Below, one piece after another: positions 1-53,409 of a stretch of DNA of 64,000 bases. The DNA lies in contig NZ_JAJAFU010000002.1 of assembly GCF_020480685.1 (NCBI RefSeq), positions 62,001-126,000 of the forward strand, written 5' to 3'. The notes below the pieces were generated by a model, which saw nothing but the letters and a program-made list of their open reading frames with translations, did no database searches and was not told where the DNA came from. The position numbers and the translations under genes were made by a program. Numbering within the stretch: position 1 is the first letter of the stretch; each line of letters begins with the position of its first letter. Origin of the DNA: Deferrivibrio essentukiensis (GTDB taxonomy: Bacteria > Chrysiogenota > Deferribacteres > Deferribacterales > Deferrivibrionaceae).

Positions 1-300
1 CTTATCAGTCGGGATATTCATCTTTGGTAGCATAAATTCGATCAAACCTCTGCTAATATTGTAATACTCTTTAGCCTCAATTTTTGCTGCGGGCACCTCT
101 TCCTTTGTCCTAACATCGATAAGCACAAAATTTGCCTTGCCTTTAATTAAGTCCATAAGCTCCTGAGGGGTTATCTCCTTAACCATTTGCTTTGCAGCAC
201 TTACCATCGCTTTGCTGTTGTCAGCAACAGGGTTTGCCTCAGCAAATACGCTAAAGCTAAAAGCCATCAAACAAAATAATGCTAATAAAAATCTTTTCAT
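1..300 (-). CDS. exported rhodanese-like protein (partial)
   Basis: N-terminal 100 residues of a protein that runs off the left edge, so no stop is visible. It opens with a signal peptide (MKRFLLALFCLMAFSFSVFA, cleavage expected near residue 20). A rhodanese-like fold follows, beginning around residue 42 (ITPQELMDLIKG) with the typical LIDVRTKEE strand-turn. The catalytic-loop region lies beyond the edge, so sulfurtransferase activity cannot be judged. Exported single-domain rhodaneses of this kind are common in anaerobic respirers and are thought to handle sulfur or sulfide in the periplasm. The ATG at 300 has an AGGAGGTG ribosome site just upstream and a near-consensus promoter at 325-354, so the start is secure. 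Confidence 0.8.
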   Translation of the reverse strand, partial: MKRFLLALFCLMAFSFSVFAEANPVADNSKAMVSAAKQMVKEITPQELMDLIKGKANFVLIDVRTKEEVPAAKIEAKEYYNISRGLIEFMLPKMNIPTDK

Positions 301-25743: not shown

Positions 25744-26967
25744 TTAGCCTACCCTCTTAGACTCGAAAAATATGCAGTTACGACCGCCGGCTTTTGCCAT
25801 ATAGAGATTTTTATCAGCTCTATCAATGGTTAGTTTAATATCTTCTTTTGGCTTATATTTAGCTATTCCAATACTTACGGTGATAGTTTTTGTATCATTA
25901 TTTAACTTAAATTTAGTGTTTTCCATACTCAGCTTAACCTGACTTGCCACAGAAAAGGCATCTTCAAAACTTCCCTTGACAGTAATTAGAAACTCTTCGC
26001 CCCCATACCTAAAGGCTTCAACAGTATTGTTGGTAAAATTTTTCAAAATCTTCCCAAAATGTCTTAGGACATTATCACCGGCAAGGTGACCATAGGTATC
26101 ATTAACATCTTTAAACTTATCAATGTCAGACATCAATATATAAAAATCTTCAGATTTTTTTATAGCAGCATTCTTAAGCTCACTTAATATTTCAAGCATC
26201 TTGTTTTTTCTATAAAGCCCTGTCAACTCATCGGTAACAGATTGTTTCCTATAATTTTCAATCTCTTTTTTAAGCTCTTCATACTTATCTTTATAACTTA
26301 TAAAGTCGCTCTCAATTTCTCCAAAAGTACTGTTGAGATTACGTTTAAAATTTTTCTTTGAATAAATTTTTTGTTCAAGAATTTCAGTGAGAGAGTTTGT
26401 AAGCTCAGCCACCTGCTTTTGTAAATTATCTATCGATTGATTTTTCTCAATATTTTCCTTCAAACCTTTAACACTTGAAAGGATATTTTCATCTTTTGCA
26501 CTGTCTTCATCAATAAAGTTTAAATTTTCATCTTTAAGATTTTTTACAACATTTTGAGTATTTGTTATCTTTTGAGAAAATTCTTTTATAAACGAATATA
26601 TTTTTTCAAGGGTAGATTCATAATCACTGTAATATTTCCCTAATATTGCTATAATTTCACTCATTTCATTAAGGAGATTGTAGCTATTTAGTTTTTCAAG
26701 CTTTTTGCTGATAAGCTCAATATCTTCAAAATCAAGATATTTTTTTATATTGTGGCTATTGTTATTAAATGCCTTTTTAATATCTTCCACAAAGTTGGTA
26801 GAAGATTTGTTCAGCTCTTTTGTAAGGGAGATAATCTCTGAGTCAGAGGCCAAATATTTTTTAATATTAGCAGGAGTTAACTGTTCACCTTTATCCTTAA
26901 TTTGCTTCAATATTACCAATGTCTTTGTCGATAATACATTAAAATAGTTTGAATATTCTCTTTCCAT
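25744..26967 (-). CDS. diguanylate cyclase (GGDEF) with helical N-terminus
   Basis: 407 residues. The C-terminal GGDEF domain (about 240-405) has TDELTGLYRKNKM at its start, DIDKFKDVNDTYGHLAGD and the active site RYGGEEF, so c-di-GMP synthesis is expected. The RxxD inhibitory site normally five residues before the active site is absent. The first 240 residues are helical and coiled-coil with no recognisable sensor and no membrane segment, so input may come through protein contacts in the cytoplasm. It is the first gene of a run leading into hypAB, rnhB and uvrC, a context that does not suggest its target. The ribosome site is weak. Confidence 0.88.
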   Translation of the reverse strand: MEREYSNYFNVLSTKTLVILKQIKDKGEQLTPANIKKYLASDSEIISLTKELNKSSTNFVEDIKKAFNNNSHNIKKYLDFEDIELISKKLEKLNSYNLLNEMSEIIAILGKYYSDYESTLEKIYSFIKEFSQKITNTQNVVKNLKDENLNFIDEDSAKDENILSSVKGLKENIEKNQSIDNLQKQVAELTNSLTEILEQKIYSKKNFKRNLNSTFGEIESDFISYKDKYEELKKEIENYRKQSVTDELTGLYRKNKMLEILSELKNAAIKKSEDFYILMSDIDKFKDVNDTYGHLAGDNVLRHFGKILKNFTNNTVEAFRYGGEEFLITVKGSFEDAFSVASQVKLSMENTKFKLNNDTKTITVSIGIAKYKPKEDIKLTIDRADKNLYMAKAGGRNCIFFESKRVG

Positions 26968-27003
26968 AGGGCATTTTTAACAGCTTTCACTAAAAAAAAC
27001 AAG

Positions 27004-27032
27004 TTGACTTTAAAAATTTTAACGATTATAAA
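27004..27032 (+). promoter_or_regulatory. promoter of the DAHP synthase leader
   Basis: TTGACT (27004-27009), a 17-base spacer and TATAAA (27027-27032). The expected start site (about 27038-27040) falls on the ATG of the leader peptide, so that peptide would be read from a leaderless end. Confidence 0.75.
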
Positions 27033-27038
27033 TTTGCC

Positions 27039-27137
27039 ATGAAAAGTTTAACCTTTGAGCTATTCAAAAAATCTGTTGACTCATTTTTCTTTAACTTTTT
27101 CTTTTTTTACTTTTATAAGTTGAGGTATACCGCCTGA
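27039..27137 (+). CDS. Phe/Tyr-rich leader peptide of the DAHP synthase attenuator
   Basis: A 32-codon frame begins at the expected transcription start. It encodes 10 Phe and 3 Tyr, including the run SFFFNFFFFYFY (residues 15-26), and stops with TGA at 27135-27137. This is the design of the classic pheL-type leader peptide: ribosomes slow at Phe/Tyr codons when charged tRNA is scarce. The stop lies inside the first arm of the antiterminator. A ribosome that finishes translation would cover that arm, while one stalled in the Phe run would leave it free. No ribosome site precedes the ATG, consistent with leaderless initiation. The peptide itself need have no function. Confidence 0.8.
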   Translation: MKSLTFELFKKSVDSFFFNFFFFYFYKLRYTA

Positions 27138-27202
27138 GGGTGAGCCTATAAATATTAAAATAATAAAGGCCACAGGCGGTTATACCGCTTGTGGCCTTTT
27201 TT
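27123..27202 (+). promoter_or_regulatory. transcription attenuator (antiterminator/terminator)
   Basis: Terminator: 27168-27180 pairs with 27184-27196 over 13 bp (one G-U), loop TAT, followed by six T. Antiterminator: GGTATACCGCCTG (27124-27136) is complementary to CAGGCGGTTATACC (27172-27185) with a single bulged base. The two structures share 27172-27180 and exclude each other. The start codon of the synthase follows 15 bases after the T run, with GGAGG between. Confidence 0.85.
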
Positions 27203-27217
27203 GTTATGGAGGATTGT

Positions 27218-28231
27218 ATGATAGTAGTAATGGAAATTGGAGCAACTGAGCAACAATTAAAAGATGTCTGCACAAAAGCTGAAGAGTTTGGGTTCAAGCC
27301 ACACATCATCTTTGGAAAAGAGAGAAATGTCGTAGGGCTTATCGGGCTTAGTGACAAAGACCATATCGGGCTTATTGGTGATATGCCGGGGGTTGATAAA
27401 GTGCTCCCAATCACAAAACCTTATAAGCTTGCAAGCCGTGAGGTAAAAAAAGAAAAATCGGTCATTGATGTAGCAGGCGTAAAGTTTGGGGGGGAAGAGA
27501 TTACAGTTATTGCAGGACCTTGCTCCGTGGAGAGTGAAGAGCAGATTATCAAATCAGCCGAATATGTTAAAGCTGCCGGGGCAAAAATGCTCAGGGGTGG
27601 TGCATTCAAACCGAGAACTTCACCTTATGCATTTCAAGGGCTAGGGGAAAAAGGTCTAAAACTTCTTGCAAAAGCAAGAGATGTAACAGGGCTTCCTTTT
27701 GTTACTGAAGTCGTCAATCCGAGGGATGTGGATGTGGTCTACAAATATACCGATATGTTTCAGGTAGGTGCAAGAAACATACAAAACTTTGCACTATTAT
27801 CACTTTTAGGAAAAACCAAAAAACCTGTGCTTTTAAAAAGAGGGATGGCCACAACCATAGAAGAATTTTTAATGGCAGCAGAATATATCCTTTCAGAAGG
27901 AAATAGTAATGTAATTCTCTGTGAGAGAGGTATAAGAACTTTTGAAACTGCAACAAGAAACACCCTTGATATTAGTTGCGTGCCTGTTGTCCAGGAAAGG
28001 TCGCACTTACCAATAATAATTGACCCAAGCCACGCAGCTGGTCATTGGCATTATGTTACACCGCTTGCTAGAGCTGCCATTGCAGTTGGTGCTGACGGTA
28101 TAATTGTAGAGGTACACCCTGAGCCTGAAAAAGCTCTAAGTGATGGTGCACAGTCTTTAAAACCGGACCAATTTATCAAAATGATGGGAGAGTTAAAAGC
28201 AATAGCTCTTGCCGTTGGCAGATATATGTAA
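27218..28231 (+). CDS. aroF: DAHP synthase, type I-beta (attenuator-controlled copy)
   Basis: 337 residues from the ATG at 27218 (GGAGG 5 bases ahead); an in-frame GTG upstream lies in the terminator stem. It condenses phosphoenolpyruvate and erythrose 4-phosphate, the entry step of the shikimate pathway. The first 70 residues form the ferredoxin/ACT-like domain that gives Phe/Tyr feedback in Thermotoga-type enzymes. The barrel has [33 protein letters not shown] and the C-terminal DPSHAAG and [14 protein letters not shown]. It is a single-gene unit ended by a terminator. A second copy at 47666-48685 is in the aromatic operon. Confidence 0.95.
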
Positions 28232-36542: not shown

Positions 36543-36569
36543 GTCACTATCCTCCGTAGTATTATATTT

Positions 36570-36726
36570 TTGAGCTGTGTATCCTGGCTTGCTTTCATCC
36601 TACTTGCCGACCTTCCCACCTCATGTCTAAATTATCTTAAGACACTCGGAAGTGGCCAAATTGGCTTTCGTCCAGCTTACAGTTGCGGGGACAGCGCCGG
36701 ATTTTCACCGGACTTCCACAGCACAT
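36570..36726 (-). ncRNA. cobalamin (B12) riboswitch
   Basis: On the minus strand the core reads GTCCGGTGAAAATCCGG, then GCTGTCCCCGCAACTGTAA (the highly conserved B12 box region), GCCACTT and GGGAAGGTCGGCAAGTA. All are hallmark blocks of the AdoCbl-type element. The P1 ends pair (GCTGTG and CACAGC at 36717-36722 and 36574-36579). It is transcribed from the promoter at 36731-36759 and lies in the leader of nrdD. No U-run terminator hairpin follows, so control is probably translational through the nearby GGAGG. Confidence 0.95.
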
Positions 36727-36730
36727 TTAA

Positions 36731-36759
36731 ATATTACCAGAAGGAGTATAACGTGTCAA
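36731..36759 (-). promoter_or_regulatory. promoter of the B12 riboswitch-nrdD transcript
   Basis: TTGACA (36754-36759), a 17-base spacer and TAATAT (36731-36736), with the start near 36725 at the first base of riboswitch P1. The rest of the 572-base gap between nrdD and amtB holds the small ORF, the riboswitch and the amtB terminator; nothing is evident in 36760-36973. Confidence 0.85.
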
Positions 36760-45548: not shown

Positions 45549-46829
45549 TTATTTCAAACTCAAGCTATCAACCTTACTGATAAAATCTGGAAAAGATACA
45601 TCAATTGAATCTATTTCGTCAATACTAAGTTGCCCAAATCTTTTTGACAAAAGGATATTTATCATAGCAATTCTATGGTCATCAAAGGATTTCAAGTTGG
45701 CCTTTTTATTTATTTCTTTCAAAGAATAAACTTTTAAGCCGTCATCAAACTCCTCCACCTCAGCCCCGATTTCCCTTAAATTATAAACCATTGCTTTTAT
45801 TCTATCAGACTCTTTAACCCTTAACTCTTCAGCACCTCTTATTTCAATTGGGGTTTTGGAAAATAATCCTAAGGCAGAAATCATAGGAATTTCATCTATA
45901 ATGTTAGCGACAATATCTCCATCTATTTTTATCCCTTCAAATTCTTGATGCTGAATAAAAATATCTCCAAAAGGGTCGCCTATGTCAGATTTTAAATTAA
46001 CTTCAAAATTAACACCCATACCTTTTAAAATATCAAGCATTCCACATCTTGTAGAGTTAAGTCCAACATTTTTGATCAAAATCTCTGCATTTTCAAACAT
46101 TAAAGCAGCACCAAGGAAGAAAGCAGCTGATGAAAAATCACCCGGCACACTTATTTCACAAGGCTTTAACCTATCCACAGGATTTATCTCAATCTTTAAG
46201 CCGTCAATTTTCAAGTCAACGCCATAAGATTTGAGCATTAATTCAGTATGATTTCTTGTAACAGCCTGCTCTGTATAAATAGTTTTGGAATCAGCCTGAA
46301 GACCTGCTAAAATAATTGCACTTTTTACCTGGGCACTTTTTACTTTTCCAACGATATCTGCACCCTTCAACTGTCTTGGGATAATAGTAAGAGGCAAAAA
46401 TCTGTTATTTTCTCTGGCTACAATATAAGCACCAAGTTTACCAAGAGGTTCAATAACTCTACCCATCGGTCTTTTCCTAAGAGAATTATCTCCGGTAAGA
46501 ACAAAGTATTTATTTTGGCCGGCAAAAAGTCCGGTTAAAAGCCGAGCAGTCGTGCCTGAGTTTTCGCAATTTATTATATCATTTGGCTCGATGAAGTTTC
46601 TAAACCCTTCAGATTCTATAATAAAGCCATTGTCTATCTCAATAAATTTCGCTCCCACAGCTGCAAGAGCTGCTTTTGTTGCAAGAGTATCTCTTGATAG
46701 GAGGGGATTTAATACCTTACTCTTCCCCTCAGCCATAGCTGACAAAATAAATGCTCTATGTGATATTGACTTATCTGACGGTACAACTATTTCACCTTTT
46801 AACGTATTCACCTTTTCAAAACTTATCAT
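45549..46829 (-). CDS. aroA: EPSP synthase (3-phosphoshikimate 1-carboxyvinyltransferase)
   Basis: 426 residues. It joins shikimate 3-phosphate and phosphoenolpyruvate. Active-site blocks: PSDKSISHRAFILSAMAEG near the start, NCENSGTTARLLTGLFAG (about 83-100, with the SGTT loop), SLRKRPMGR, SAQVKSAIILAGL and RVKESDRIKAM. Its start overlaps tyrA's stop (ATGA). Confidence 0.97.
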   Translation of the reverse strand: MISFEKVNTLKGEIVVPSDKSISHRAFILSAMAEGKSKVLNPLLSRDTLATKAALAAVGAKFIEIDNGFIIESEGFRNFIEPNDIINCENSGTTARLLTGLFAGQNKYFVLTGDNSLRKRPMGRVIEPLGKLGAYIVARENNRFLPLTIIPRQLKGADIVGKVKSAQVKSAIILAGLQADSKTIYTEQAVTRNHTELMLKSYGVDLKIDGLKIEINPVDRLKPCEISVPGDFSSAAFFLGAALMFENAEILIKNVGLNSTRCGMLDILKGMGVNFEVNLKSDIGDPFGDIFIQHQEFEGIKIDGDIVANIIDEIPMISALGLFSKTPIEIRGAEELRVKESDRIKAMVYNLREIGAEVEEFDDGLKVYSLKEINKKANLKSFDDHRIAMINILLSKRFGQLSIDEIDSIDVSFPDFISKVDSLSLK

Positions 46830-47659
46830 AGCGCTTCCCTCAACCCTTTAACCTTTGAAATCATGCTTTTCATTAGGTCGTAATCGTTTGATTTTATAGC
46901 ATTTTTCCATTTTGTAAGCTCCTCAATATATCTATCAATCAGCTGCTGTAGGTTGTCACTGTTATCAAAAAATATATCTGACCACATCGTAGGGTTACTT
47001 TTTGCAATCCGTGTAAAATCTCTAAACCCGCCTCCAGTAAAACTAAATGCCAATGAATCTTCATTTTCAACAAAATCTATCAAAGAAAAAGCTATTAAGT
47101 GTGGAAAGTGACTGATAAGACCAAATATTTTATCATGCCTATCTACATCCATAACATTCACTTTCATACCTATTTGACTGTGCAGATTTTTAAGTGCACC
47201 TAAAAACTCTTTCTGCTCTGAGTCTATCAAAATATGGTAAGCATTTTTAAAGATATCTGCTTCTGAGTTTTCAAAGCCTGATACCTCTTTTCCTGCAATA
47301 GGGTGCCCGCCGACAAAGTTGAGATTTAAATCTTTTGCTTTCTCACAAATGCTTTTCTTAGTGCTGCAACCGTCAGTAATAAATGTAGTTACCTTTTTGC
47401 CCCCAAGATATTCTAAAAATTTCAAAGCCGAATTAACAGGCAAACAAATATAAATAAGATCAAGTTCAAAATTTAAAAACTCATCTTCGTTATCGGTCAG
47501 CCCTTCAAAGATAAATGACTCAGCCGCACTGCCAAGACATTCAACACTTTTATCAAACCCATAAACTTTAATCCCTTGTTCAACAAAAGCCTTTGCAAAC
47601 GAACCACCGATAAGCCCAAGTCCGGCTATCCCTATTTTATTAAAATGAATATTTTCCAA
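46826..47659 (-). CDS. tyrA: prephenate dehydrogenase
   Basis: 277 residues. It oxidises prephenate to 4-hydroxyphenylpyruvate for tyrosine, using NAD. The nucleotide fold is IGIAGLGLIGGSFAKAF, and FVGGHPIAGKEVSGFENS holds the substrate-site His and Ser. No ACT domain is fused, so feedback control is not built in. It follows the DAHP synthase by six bases. Confidence 0.95.
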   Translation of the reverse strand: MENIHFNKIGIAGLGLIGGSFAKAFVEQGIKVYGFDKSVECLGSAAESFIFEGLTDNEDEFLNFELDLIYICLPVNSALKFLEYLGGKKVTTFITDGCSTKKSICEKAKDLNLNFVGGHPIAGKEVSGFENSEADIFKNAYHILIDSEQKEFLGALKNLHSQIGMKVNVMDVDRHDKIFGLISHFPHLIAFSLIDFVENEDSLAFSFTGGGFRDFTRIAKSNPTMWSDIFFDNSDNLQQLIDRYIEELTKWKNAIKSNDYDLMKSMISKVKGLREAL

Positions 47660-47665
47660 AATAAC

Positions 47666-48685
47666 TTATTCCTCTATATGTTTTTCAACTGTAGCAGCAA
47701 TAATTTTTATTCGCTTCATCAAAATATCAAACTCTTCAGGAGTAATTGATTGATCACCGTCACTCATAGCCTCAGATGGTTTTGGATGCACTTCAATCAT
47801 TAATCCATCAGCTCCTGCTGCAATAGCAGCTTGTGCCATCGGCAAAATACAATCCCTTCTCCCTGTGCCATGGCTTGGGTCAACCACAATTGGCAAATGA
47901 CTCATCCCTTTAATTACAGGCACTGCAGACAAGTCTAAAAGGTTTCTTGTTTCACTGTCAAAGCTTCTTATGCCTCTTTCGCAAAGGATTATATTATAAT
48001 TTCCTTCAGATGCAATGTATTCAGCAGCCATCAAAAACTCTTTAATGGTAGCACAAATCCCTCTCTTGAGCATGCAAGGGATATTAGACTTACCCACCTC
48101 TTTTAACAGCCTGAAATTTTGCATATTTCTTGCACCGATTTGAATTATATCGGTGTATTTTCCAACCGCATCAAGGTCTCTAGGGTCCATAAGTTCAGTT
48201 ATTACAAGCATATTATATTCATCAGCAGCTTCTCTTAAGTATTTCAAACCTTCCTCTCCAAGCCCCTGAAAAGCATAAGGAGAAGTCCTTGGTTTAAAAG
48301 CGCCGCCCCTTAATATCCTCGCACCTGATGCATGCACTCTGGAAGCTACCTCAAAAAGCATCTCCCTGTTTTCCACTGAGCATGGTCCTGCCATTACAAC
48401 ACTGTGCTTGCCGCCAATTTTAAACCCTTTGATATCAAGCACAGAATCTTCTTTTTTAAATTCACTGCTGACAAGTTTAAAAGGTTTAAATACAGGGACA
48501 ACTTTTTCAACTCCGGGAAAAGAGCTTAATGGCTTATCCCTTAAGACCGATTCATCCCCTACAAGCCCTATAACAGTTTTGCCTTCATTCAAGTATATAT
48601 GTGTTTTAAATCCATATGAGTTAAGCTTTTCTACCAAAAAATCAACGTCAGCCTGACTTACACCGTTTTTCAAAACTATAATCAT
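47666..48685 (-). CDS. aroF: DAHP synthase, type I-beta (operon copy)
   Basis: 339 residues, about the same layout as the copy at 27218: a regulatory N-terminal domain (1-70), then the barrel with [33 protein letters not shown] and DPSHGTGRRD. Catalytic and metal residues are kept. The N-terminal domains of the two paralogues differ most, so feedback by Phe or Tyr may differ. Here the gene sits between tyrA and hisC and has no separate attenuator. Confidence 0.95.
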   Translation of the reverse strand: MIIVLKNGVSQADVDFLVEKLNSYGFKTHIYLNEGKTVIGLVGDESVLRDKPLSSFPGVEKVVPVFKPFKLVSSEFKKEDSVLDIKGFKIGGKHSVVMAGPCSVENREMLFEVASRVHASGARILRGGAFKPRTSPYAFQGLGEEGLKYLREAADEYNMLVITELMDPRDLDAVGKYTDIIQIGARNMQNFRLLKEVGKSNIPCMLKRGICATIKEFLMAAEYIASEGNYNIILCERGIRSFDSETRNLLDLSAVPVIKGMSHLPIVVDPSHGTGRRDCILPMAQAAIAAGADGLMIEVHPKPSEAMSDGDQSITPEEFDILMKRIKIIAATVEKHIEE

Positions 48686-48688
48686 AGG

Positions 48689-49786
48689 TTATCTTCCTAA
48701 TATTTTTTTCAATTTTTCTATAAAAAATTTATTTTCTTCTTCTGTGCCTATGGACACCCTTACATATTCCGCAAGCCCTGGCCCTAAAAATCTTACAATT
48801 ACCCCCTCTTTCAACAAATCATCAAATATCTTCTTACCGTCTCCAACATTTACAAGGATAAAATTAGCCTGAGTAGGGATATACTCCAAGCCAAGATTTT
48901 CAAATTCTTTATAAAGATATGCCTTACCTTCTCTATTGGTCTTTATGGACTTTCTAAGGAAATCATTATCGTCTAACGCTGCTTCAGCTGCAATCTGAGC
49001 AAGCATATTTACGTTAAAAGGCTGCCTTACCCTGTTTAACATATCTATAGCCTCACTATCACCAACAGCATAACCTATCCTAAAAGCGGCAAGGCCATAG
49101 GCCTTTGAAAATGTTCTCATTACTATTAGATTTTTATACTTTTTCATTAGTTTTAGGGAATTTGGATAATCCCCTGCGTCAACATATTCTATATAAGCCT
49201 CATCAAGTGCCACAATTTTATCCTCTGAAATACTTTCAAGAAAATCTACAAGCGCTTCTTCACTAAAATACGTCCCGGTCGGATTATTTGGATTTGCCAA
49301 AAAAACTATTCTTGTTTTTTCGGTAATACTATTTTTTAGCCCTTCAAAATCCACTTCAAACCCATCTTTCATCTTTACCCATTCACACTTACTGCCAGCT
49401 GCCTGTGCAATTATTCCGTAAACAGAGAAAGAAGGAGCATAAGACAGGACAGTTTCACCATCTTTAACAAAAGTCCTGATTAAAAGCTCAATAATTTCAT
49501 TTGAGCCTGTGCCAAAAATAAGCTCCTCTTTTTTGACCGAAAGCTTATTAGCAAGCTTCTCTCTTAGATAATAAGCATCACCAAGCGGATACCTGTTCAT
49601 TTCATCTAAATTATCTATTATAGCCTTCTTGGCTTTTTCTGGAATCCCAAGCGGATTTTCATTAGAAGCAAGCTTTACTGCTTTTTTGATTCCAAGTTCC
49701 CTTTCAAGCTCTTTTATAGGTTTACCCGGCTGATAAGGCACCAAGTCTACAATATTTTTCCCCGCTAATTTTTTGTAATCTATCAT
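48689..49786 (-). CDS. hisC: histidinol-phosphate/aromatic aminotransferase
   Basis: 365 residues, class I PLP aminotransferase of the HisC type. The PLP Lys is in TFSKAYGLAAFRIGYAVG, and FLANPNNPTGTYF and ASNENPLGIPE are family marks. Placed between pheA and tyrA/aroF with no other his genes, it probably serves mainly to aminate phenylpyruvate and 4-hydroxyphenylpyruvate, though dual use for histidine is likely. Its start overlaps the pheA stop (4 bases). Confidence 0.93.
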   Translation of the reverse strand: MIDYKKLAGKNIVDLVPYQPGKPIKELERELGIKKAVKLASNENPLGIPEKAKKAIIDNLDEMNRYPLGDAYYLREKLANKLSVKKEELIFGTGSNEIIELLIRTFVKDGETVLSYAPSFSVYGIIAQAAGSKCEWVKMKDGFEVDFEGLKNSITEKTRIVFLANPNNPTGTYFSEEALVDFLESISEDKIVALDEAYIEYVDAGDYPNSLKLMKKYKNLIVMRTFSKAYGLAAFRIGYAVGDSEAIDMLNRVRQPFNVNMLAQIAAEAALDDNDFLRKSIKTNREGKAYLYKEFENLGLEYIPTQANFILVNVGDGKKIFDDLLKEGVIVRFLGPGLAEYVRVSIGTEEENKFFIEKLKKILGR

Positions 49787-50853
49787 TTTTCCCCCTTTGG
49801 ATATGATCCTAAAATTTTAAAGAAAGATACCTCATTACTAAACTTATCTATAGCATCTTTTATCTTTTTATCTTTATAATGTCCATCTATATCTACATAA
49901 AATACATATTCCCACGCTTTCATTTTAGATGGTCTCGACTCGATTTTTGTCATATTTATCTCATTTTCTGAAAAAGATTTTAAGGCTGAATATAGCGAGC
50001 CTGCCCTGTGGGCTACTGAAAACACAAGGGACGTTTTATCCTTTCCGGTCATTTCAGGTTCAAAATTGCCTATAATTAAAAACCTCGTATAATTGTTTGT
50101 AAAATCTTCTATATTTTTATTAACTATTTTTAGACCGTAAACAAGCTCAGACATTTCAGATGCTATCGCAGCAGAAGTCTCATCCTTTGACGCAATCTCT
50201 GCAGCCTTTGCGGTTGATTCTACCTCAATTATTGGAATACTTCCTGCCTCCCTTGAAAGCCACTTACGGCACTGAGCTATCGCATGAGGGTGAGAATATA
50301 TCCTTTTTATATCTTCAAGCTTACCTGTTTTATTCATCAAATGATGACTTACCTCTAAAAATACTTCACCACAAATTTTCAAGTTTGAACTCATAAACAT
50401 GTCAAGAGCATGATTAACAACTCCCTCAAGGGAATTTTCAATGGGAATAATACCATAGTCACACCTTTTTTTCTCCACATCTTCAAATACCTCAGGGATA
50501 CTTCTAGAAGGCAATAACTTTGCAGACAAACCAAAGTGCTTTATCCCTGCAAGGTGCGTAAAGGTGCCTTCAGGCCCGAGGTAAGCAATTTTTTGCACCT
50601 CTTCAAGAGAGAGTGATGCCGATATAATTTCCCTAAATACACTCTTTAAAGACTCATTTGGAAATGGTCCTGAATTAATCGCTTTCAACCTTTCATAGAT
50701 TGCCTTCTCCCTTGACGGCACATAAAGAGGTTTGTTTTGCGACTGTTTAATCTTACCTATTTCAATAACACAACGGGCTCTTTCATTTAGCAGTTCGAGT
50801 ATCTTTTCGTCAATATTGTCAATCTGTTGTCTTAACTCGTCAATACTTTTCAT
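49783..50853 (-). CDS. pheA: chorismate mutase / prephenate dehydratase (P-protein)
   Basis: 356 residues with three domains. AroQ chorismate mutase (about 1-85) starts DELRQQIDNIDEKILELLNERA. Prephenate dehydratase (about 88-270) has AYLGPEGTF and NYTRFLIIG. The ACT domain (about 275-350) has the ESRPSK Phe-binding motif, so feedback by phenylalanine is expected. It makes phenylpyruvate from chorismate. It is the first gene of the pheA-hisC-aroF-tyrA-aroA-cmk-ispH-rpsA run. Confidence 0.97.
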   Translation of the reverse strand: MKSIDELRQQIDNIDEKILELLNERARCVIEIGKIKQSQNKPLYVPSREKAIYERLKAINSGPFPNESLKSVFREIISASLSLEEVQKIAYLGPEGTFTHLAGIKHFGLSAKLLPSRSIPEVFEDVEKKRCDYGIIPIENSLEGVVNHALDMFMSSNLKICGEVFLEVSHHLMNKTGKLEDIKRIYSHPHAIAQCRKWLSREAGSIPIIEVESTAKAAEIASKDETSAAIASEMSELVYGLKIVNKNIEDFTNNYTRFLIIGNFEPEMTGKDKTSLVFSVAHRAGSLYSALKSFSENEINMTKIESRPSKMKAWEYVFYVDIDGHYKDKKIKDAIDKFSNEVSFFKILGSYPKGEK

Positions 50854-51218: not shown

Positions 51219-51482
51219 TTATTTAGTCAGTGCATCTATGATATCGTTTATAGATACATCCAAAGGGATTTGAATCAACTTATCCCGACTATGCTCACCT
51301 ACCAATATATTAACAGCACTTTTCTTCAAATTAAGCTTTTTCGAAATAAATTTTATTAATTCCTTATTAGCGGCACCGTCTACCGGAGGAGCGCATAGCT
51401 TAATTTTTAGAATATCATCGTTATAAAATCCCACACACTCTGTCTTTTTTGCTGAAGGCTGAACATGAAGCTTAATTTTCAT
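51219..51482 (-). CDS. DUF167 (YggU) family protein
   Basis: 87 residues from the ATG at 51482, the family's natural start (MKIKLHVQPSAKKTE). Conserved parts are LKIKLCAPPVDGAANKELIKF and VGEHSRDKLIQI. These small alpha/beta proteins are widespread and have no known function. The start lies inside the last 11 bases of the MinD-PilZ gene, so the pair is translationally coupled. Confidence 0.88.
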   Translation of the reverse strand: MKIKLHVQPSAKKTECVGFYNDDILKIKLCAPPVDGAANKELIKFISKKLNLKKSAVNILVGEHSRDKLIQIPLDVSINDIIDALTK

Positions 51483-53409
51483 CAGGATATGTGACAATTC
51501 CGGCGTCTTTATAATAAGCACTATTTAATAGAAGTGACTCCAAAGACCCTTTTATTTTTACATCAGGGCTTAGTACCCCTTCATTCACGAAAAATTCCCC
51601 CTCGTTTAAATTTAACAGCAAATAAAGGGATTCGTAGGGGTCAAACTCTTGATAAACAGCATTTATTATATTTCCTTCTCTAATCATTATTTGTCCTGAG
51701 TCATTATTGGTAAGTATCTCAACAGTTAAATTTTTTTTCATACCACACAAAAACTGCACTAACTCATGCATATCTATATTACTGACGTCACCTGAGAAAT
51801 TATTATCACTTAGAATATTTTCACTCTCACCAAGTATACTCTTATACATATTAACAAAATTTTCTATCCGCTTGTAGAATATTTTGGGTAGGTCTACAAA
51901 TTCAAGTCCATACCTGTTATTATCCCTTATATTTTTAATTTTTGATTTAACATTTTCAATTTTCTTTCCATTAGGTAAAGTAAAACTAATTATTATGGCA
52001 TCGTTCATATCAAGAGGGTAACTTGTTTCAAGCAATGTACCATTCACACTTAAGTCGTGTAAAACACCAGGAAATGTCTTAATGTTTTTGTAATTCACAC
52101 TACAAGCTATATTCACCGGGACACGCTTACTCCCACGCAAAGAGTACTCTGTATAATCCTGAGGGTAACTTATTAAAATCAATGATGAATTTGGCTCAAT
52201 ACCTTTTATTAAACCTGTTTCAAACTCGATCAGTTTGTCCTGAAAAAGATATCTTGCCGTGACTTTTTCATAATACTCAAACAACTTCAAGATTTCACGC
52301 CTTGATTCAACTATTATGTACTGCCCTAAACTCCAACCTATAATATTTGTCCCGTAAAATCTTTTTTTATCTTCCACCAAAATAAGCTCTGTACCTACAG
52401 TAAATTGCCTAAAGATATTCCCCTTTACAAACTCACTTGACCTTTTCCTCAGGTAAAGCTTAAGGGTTTTGTAAAGCCCGTTTATATCTTCCAACATTTT
52501 ACTCATAGTCTTTTCCATCTGAACGATAAAATACGGGTCATCAACCATAGGCTCAGGTTCCTGAACAGTAGGACTTACTTCCTCTTCATTTTCTAAAAGT
52601 GATTTTTCCTCTATAAATTGCTCAAAAAAGTCTGCAATATCATTTTTAGGGACAGTATTTTTTGCTATAACATCGGCATAATACCTAAAAAACCTTGTAG
52701 TTTGCGAGTTTGGATAAAGTAGAACAATAGGAATTTGCCTATTAACAGATTCGGTAAAATTCTCATCATCAGGAAGTGGTCCCAAAAGATTTACTTTTAT
52801 ATCCAAAAATTTTTCAACAGTCTCCTTAAACTTATCAAATACATTGTGTGTCTGCACTTTCGATTTGGCTTTATTCACCAGAACATCTATATTTTTATTT
52901 ATATTTTTACTTTTAAGTACTTTAAGCATTCCATAGGCATCTTTTATGGAAGTAACTTCCGGGACTATTATCAAAATGACAGTATCAGCAAGCTTTATAA
53001 AACTTATAACCTCATCAGATACACCCGCTCCCGTATCAATAACAAGAAAATCTGCCTTTTCCTTAAGCTTTGCAATTTCACTAATTATTTTATTTTTATT
53101 TTTACTGGTAAGATTAGCTAACTTTGATACCCCTTTCCCTGCAGGAATAATGGAAAAGTTTGGCAGCTCCTTTTTTTTCAATAAGATATCTTCAATGGTA
53201 ACATCTTCTTCCAATAGATTTTCAATTGTTTTACCAGGGATTTCACCAAATAAAAGGTCAGCATTTCCAAGGGCCAAATCGGCATCCAACAAATAAGTAT
53301 TATATCCGTATTTAGCAAGGCAAACACTAAGGTTGATACAAAAATTACTTTTTCCAACCCCTCCCTTACCACTTGTAACAGCTAATACTTTACAATTTTT
53401 ACTTTTCAT
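51472..53409 (-). CDS. MinD/FlhG-type ATPase fused to PilZ and DUF4388 domains
   Basis: 645 residues, four parts. (1) MinD/ParA ATPase, 1-260: deviant Walker A SGKGGVGKS (13-21), LLDADLALGNADLLFG and VIDTGAGVSDEVI, closest in style to FlhG/YlxH; no C-terminal amphipathic membrane helix is evident. (2) Acidic linker then a YcgR-N-like beta domain, about 340-420. (3) PilZ domain, about 421-525, with both c-di-GMP motifs intact: RGSKR (425-429) and DLSVNG (452-457). (4) DUF4388/PatA-type domain, about 538-620 (FSGDVSNIDMHELVQFL, GQIMIREGNIINAVY). FlhG sets flagellar number and place; here nucleotide state could be tied to c-di-GMP. It is divergent from argC with 59 bases between. Confidence 0.85.
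   Translation of the reverse strand: MKSKNCKVLAVTSGKGGVGKSNFCINLSVCLAKYGYNTYLLDADLALGNADLLFGEIPGKTIENLLEEDVTIEDILLKKKELPNFSIIPAGKGVSKLANLTSKNKNKIISEIAKLKEKADFLVIDTGAGVSDEVISFIKLADTVILIIVPEVTSIKDAYGMLKVLKSKNINKNIDVLVNKAKSKVQTHNVFDKFKETVEKFLDIKVNLLGPLPDDENFTESVNRQIPIVLLYPNSQTTRFFRYYADVIAKNTVPKNDIADFFEQFIEEKSLLENEEEVSPTVQEPEPMVDDPYFIVQMEKTMSKMLEDINGLYKTLKLYLRKRSSEFVKGNIFRQFTVGTELILVEDKKRFYGTNIIGWSLGQYIIVESRREILKLFEYYEKVTARYLFQDKLIEFETGLIKGIEPNSSLILISYPQDYTEYSLRGSKRVPVNIACSVNYKNIKTFPGVLHDLSVNGTLLETSYPLDMNDAIIISFTLPNGKKIENVKSKIKNIRDNNRYGLEFVDLPKIFYKRIENFVNMYKSILGESENILSDNNFSGDVSNIDMHELVQFLCGMKKNLTVEILTNNDSGQIMIREGNIINAVYQEFDPYESLYLLLNLNEGEFFVNEGVLSPDVKIKGSLESLLLNSAYYKDAGIVTYPDEN

Follow-up and report, generated by a model that had tools for sequence, protein, structure and literature searches.

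A probable Phe/Tyr leader-peptide attenuator with a predicted leaderless leader upstream of a DAHP synthase gene in Deferrivibrio and its relatives in the order Deferribacterales

The stretch of DNA analysed here (the window: 64,000 nucleotides of Deferrivibrio essentukiensis, to which all positions refer unless stated otherwise) contains a divergent intergenic region at 26968-27217, flanked by a GGDEF-type gene recognised from its sequence (25744-26967, minus strand) and, on the plus strand, by the gene of a DAHP synthase (27218-28231), which catalyses the first step of aromatic amino-acid synthesis. The product of the latter combines a ferredoxin-like domain (PF18152) with PF00793 and corresponds to NF006421/PRK08673; its ATG at 27218 is preceded by a Shine-Dalgarno sequence, GGAGG (27208-27212). 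The other features described for this region are all on the plus strand. A -35 box, TTGACT (27004-27009), is followed after a 17-nt spacer by a -10 box, TATAAA (27027-27032), and 6 nt further on begins a short open reading frame, MKSLTFELFKKSVDSFFFNFFFFYFYKLRYTA (27039-27137), whose ATG coincides with the predicted +1 and lacks a Shine-Dalgarno sequence. This frame has 32 codons and would encode a peptide of 32 amino acids with 10 Phe and 3 Tyr, including the run FFFNFFFFYFY (27084-27116). An intrinsic terminator hairpin (27165-27199; arms 27165-27180 and 27184-27199) lies between it and the DAHP synthase gene, with a stem of 16 bp, a loop of 3 nt, a predicted stability of about -28 kcal/mol and a run of six T (27197-27202), the first three of which are also paired in the stem. 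The original prediction had placed here a promoter, an ATG at the start site, a 32-codon frame with 10 Phe and 3 Tyr, and a terminator with six T before the gene; all of these are present in the sequence, the only correction being a stem of 16 bp instead of 13 bp.

The same RNA can form a competing antiterminator of 19 pairs. Its 5' side (27124-27147, with pairing segments 27124-27135 and 27140-27147) spans the leader stop codon (27135-27137), an overlap that had been anticipated, and its 3' side (27167-27186) is common with the 5' arm of the terminator. As had also been proposed, the two hairpins share bases and cannot coexist: the antiterminator uses 13 of the 16 positions in the 5' arm of the terminator. 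The region folds with a z-score of -6.7 against its shuffles, and the terminator is the more stable of the two structures at this locus. The minimum free energy fold in the absence of translation is the terminator, so that a ribosome would be needed for switching. In a footprint model in which the ribosome is assumed to extend 12 nt beyond its A site, stalling with a Phe or Tyr codon in the A site leaves the antiterminator arm free at 11 of the 13 such codons, and the arm is covered once the ribosome is at the stop codon. A third, protector hairpin (27123-27147) is present in the genus itself; it was rejected as a conserved part of the system, its mean z-score over 23 loci being -0.1.

These 23 loci were obtained by searching for the DAHP synthase in 46 genomes of the order Deferribacterales, and comprise the inspected loci with a close ortholog, distributed over five families (f1 to f5). 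They include Deferribacteraceae bacterium M2_7_5_bin.3 (94% identical) and Calditerrivibrio. Three further families (f6 to f8) mostly have only a more distant paralog of the enzyme, and no convincing leader was found for the f7 paralogs that were checked. The attenuator arrangement recurs in all 23 examined loci of the order that keep the gene: a short open reading frame with 8-15 Phe and Tyr codons, the end amino acids of the pathway, is followed by a terminator in each case, and folding yields at every locus an antiterminator that competes with the terminator, with the leader stop codon within or beside the 5' side of the antiterminator. At one locus (L006) the automated fold chose the wrong hairpin, and another folding gives the normal pair there.

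The pairing arms themselves have evolved in concert. In a MAFFT alignment, 25 cells of the antiterminator changed on both sides, compared with 14.1 in shuffles, and 43 cells of the terminator, compared with 16.3, each value lying above all 500 shuffles. Only 63% of the antiterminator cells pair in this alignment because the pairing register differs between clades. Since such register shifts blur column-based covariation of the antiterminator, we used an alignment-free test in which arms were exchanged between eight clades (40,320 permutations). The observed terminator arms have an energy of -25.6 kcal/mol versus -19.5 after swapping (clade-swap fraction 0.00002), and the antiterminator -24.5 versus -21.2 kcal/mol (clade-swap fraction 0.00027). 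The antiterminator reaches a mean z-score of -3.2 against shuffles of its 5' side; it is weakest in one genus (g8), where its excess over chance is weak (z -0.7 to -2.2). These comparisons show that the paired arms of both helices co-evolve across clades. The original prediction had called for an alignment of relatives covering the Phe codons and both hairpins; the Phe/Tyr run is kept and both helices covary beyond shuffles.

One may ask whether the Phe-rich stretch is a sensor at all. T-rich sequence readily gives Phe codons, and the stretch could instead be a T-rich RNA site for protein binding or processing, or an incidental open reading frame, with a terminator that simply dampens transcription. 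Another Phe/Tyr-rich frame does exist at three loci (L011, L013 and L014), and shuffles of L014 often match its Phe/Tyr count. We nevertheless regard this explanation as highly improbable. The frame, whose conservation in relatives had been set as a test, is open and rich in Phe and Tyr at 23 of 23 loci, and only 2 of 20,000 dinucleotide shuffles of the D. essentukiensis frame stay open with as many such codons. In addition, 93 of the 101 C residues within the Phe/Tyr clusters occupy the third codon position, a bias partly built in by the selection of Phe and Tyr codons, and the stop codon falls in or next to the 5' side of the antiterminator. A different possibility, compatible with an attenuator, is that the attenuated short RNA or the peptide has a second job in trans. 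Termination would free a small leaderless mRNA, and rnTrpL and peTrpL of Sinorhizobium meliloti provide a precedent (PMC7298713). However, the genera differ in the N-terminal half of the peptide and share only the Phe/Tyr run and the RNA arms, and we consider such a role quite improbable.

If the region is an attenuator, its transcript could still start further upstream, at an unrecognised promoter, and carry an ordinary or weak 5' UTR. A leadered version indeed exists: in genus g8 (five species, five loci) the -35 box is located 50-63 nt upstream of the leader ATG and a GGAG or GAGG box 12-16 nt before it. In all 18 loci outside g8, by contrast, TTGAC starts 35 or 36 nt upstream of the ATG of the leader, the sequence between the two has diverged, and no Shine-Dalgarno sequence lies close to the ATG; in the f5b loci, the promoter spacer contains GGAG or GAGG, 17-19 nt upstream. 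If transcription begins on the ATG, the promoter is expected to keep its distance from it while the intervening sequence drifts, as is seen here, and the same spacing is found at most trpE leaders of the order (see below), so that we think an upstream start unlikely. The support for the promoter is comparative. One consensus scan did not call it at 27004-27032, because its -10 consensus requires a T as the sixth base. The pattern TTGACN-(16..18)-TATAA-(5..8)-ATG has two matches in the genome, one of them at the leader; a genome-wide scan for leaderless layouts gave 52 matches versus 26 in a reversed-pattern control, a modest excess. The promoter geometry puts the probable 5' end of the RNA on the A of the leader ATG or on a neighbouring nucleotide. 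The comparison thus gives strong support to the proposal of a leaderless leader, whose translation would begin at the very 5' end of the mRNA.

Altogether, we are confident that a ribosome-mediated transcription attenuator with a probably leaderless Phe(/Tyr)-rich leader controls the DAHP synthase gene. This reading draws on sequence and comparison for the open reading frame, the mutual exclusion and joint evolution of the two hairpins, the spacing of promoter and ATG, and the conservation in the order; where transcription starts, that translation is leaderless, that ribosomes stall and in which direction the gene responds are inferred, as follows. RNA polymerase would start at or next to the leader ATG and produce a leader mRNA devoid of a 5' UTR, on which ribosomes would consequently initiate at a 5'-terminal AUG. 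With an ample supply of charged tRNA-Phe, and perhaps of charged tRNA-Tyr, the ribosome would reach the stop codon at 27135 and cover the 5' side of the antiterminator, allowing the terminator to form and thereby ending transcription upstream of the gene. When Phe or Tyr is scarce, the ribosome would stall in the run at 27084-27116, and the antiterminator, then free, could pair with the 5' arm of the terminator and let the polymerase read the DAHP synthase gene. Slow translation of the Phe-rich leader therefore very probably turns the gene on. The two-hairpin logic of the original prediction, in which stalling at Phe/Tyr codons activates the gene, agrees with the comparative evidence, and a Phe/Tyr leader-peptide attenuator ahead of a DAHP synthase is favoured by its recurrence at 23 of 23 loci and by the co-evolution of the arms.

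The locus resembles the pheA and pheST leaders of Escherichia coli (RF01859, Phe_leader) in its Phe-rich leader and terminator/antiterminator switch; it differs in its target gene, and the RF01859 covariance model scores it at 26.5 bits, below the curated cut-off of 55 bits. The E. coli leaders have a ribosome-binding site. An Rfam search detected no riboswitch, T-box or Phe leader over cut-off at the locus. The one element that it identified in the window is a cobalamin riboswitch (36556-36756, minus strand, 71 bits), whose 5' end carries a promoter-like site. The aroR-type leaders of Corynebacterium glutamicum are reportedly leaderless, as Neshat et al. are said to have described in 2014. 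In that species, aroF is preceded by the aroR leader with Phe-Tyr-Phe and is induced under Phe limitation (PMC4046766, PMC11802643); the target enzyme step and the Phe/Tyr leader peptide are alike, whereas the phylum is another and a single Phe-Tyr-Phe motif stands against the 8-15 Phe/Tyr codons found here. Attenuators were also predicted upstream of DAHP synthase genes in Thermus, Vibrio and Shewanella (PMC1173090, PMC2659441). The RNA of S. meliloti trpL begins at the ATG of the leader frame and undergoes ribosome-mediated attenuation (PMC7298713), albeit with Trp instead of Phe/Tyr and in control of trpE(G). The C. glutamicum ilvBNC operon has a leaderless leader frame and competing hairpins (PMC11857589); unlike here, where no third hairpin is conserved, its model involves three hairpins, and it responds to branched-chain amino acids.

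The locus is thus a case of classical ribosome-mediated attenuation and is not new in kind. The novelty originally suggested does not hold for DAHP synthase attenuators or leaderless leader peptides, both documented in C. glutamicum or S. meliloti, and it appears to hold for the lineage: a literature search on Deferribacter, leader peptides and attenuation, in a collection with few subscription journals, returned no report. What is new is the phylum, the conservation throughout the order and the natural contrast between leaderless and leadered versions. Ribosome-mediated attenuation of a DAHP synthase gene and of trp is thereby placed in a phylum for which no report was found, and leaderless leader peptides, which have been described in Actinobacteria and Alphaproteobacteria, could represent a recurrent design. 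Moreover, the occurrence of leaderless and Shine-Dalgarno versions of one attenuator within an order offers a natural comparison of initiation mode and of coupling between the first ribosome and RNA polymerase. We lean slightly towards the idea that the aroF and trp attenuators of Deferribacterota are leaderless by rule and have been kept so by selection for the age of the order, for example because initiation on a 5'-terminal AUG ties the first ribosome tightly to RNA polymerase, one genus having exchanged the leaderless start of its aroF leader for a Shine-Dalgarno start.

The trpE genes of Deferribacterales have Trp-Trp-Trp leaders, most of which, including that of D. essentukiensis, have a box of the TTGAC or TTTACA type located 35-37 nt upstream of an in-frame ATG; locus L163 fits the leaderless spacing poorly and L156 is cut at a contig end. 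The D. essentukiensis copy (L154, near 94301 on C1) and its relatives (L149-L163) have a leaderless-looking start, and two tandem terminator-like hairpins precede the gene in most of them. No convincing Phe/Tyr leader was found upstream of the apparent pheA operon of the window (45549-50853, minus strand), which contains a second DAHP synthase gene (47666-48685) and a prephenate dehydratase gene (49783-50853), and leuA yielded no consistent candidate for a leucine leader.

Outside the order, aromatic leaders occur upstream of relatives of the enzyme in Eubacterium, Oscillospiraceae, Lentisphaeria and Thermodesulfovibrionales. Aromatic-rich short frames precede DAHP synthase genes in several other phyla (L043, L059, L063, L066, L068, L074, L084, L087 and L096), with WWW plus FF at L043 and a run of five Phe at L087, and most are followed by a terminator-like hairpin. 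Elsewhere in the window, a MinD/ParA-like gene (51472-53409, minus strand; N-terminus SGKGGVGKS) has a leaderless-looking start, TTTACA-17-TATAAT-7-ATG, and comparable layouts occur at TetR- and ArsR-like genes in other parts of the genome.
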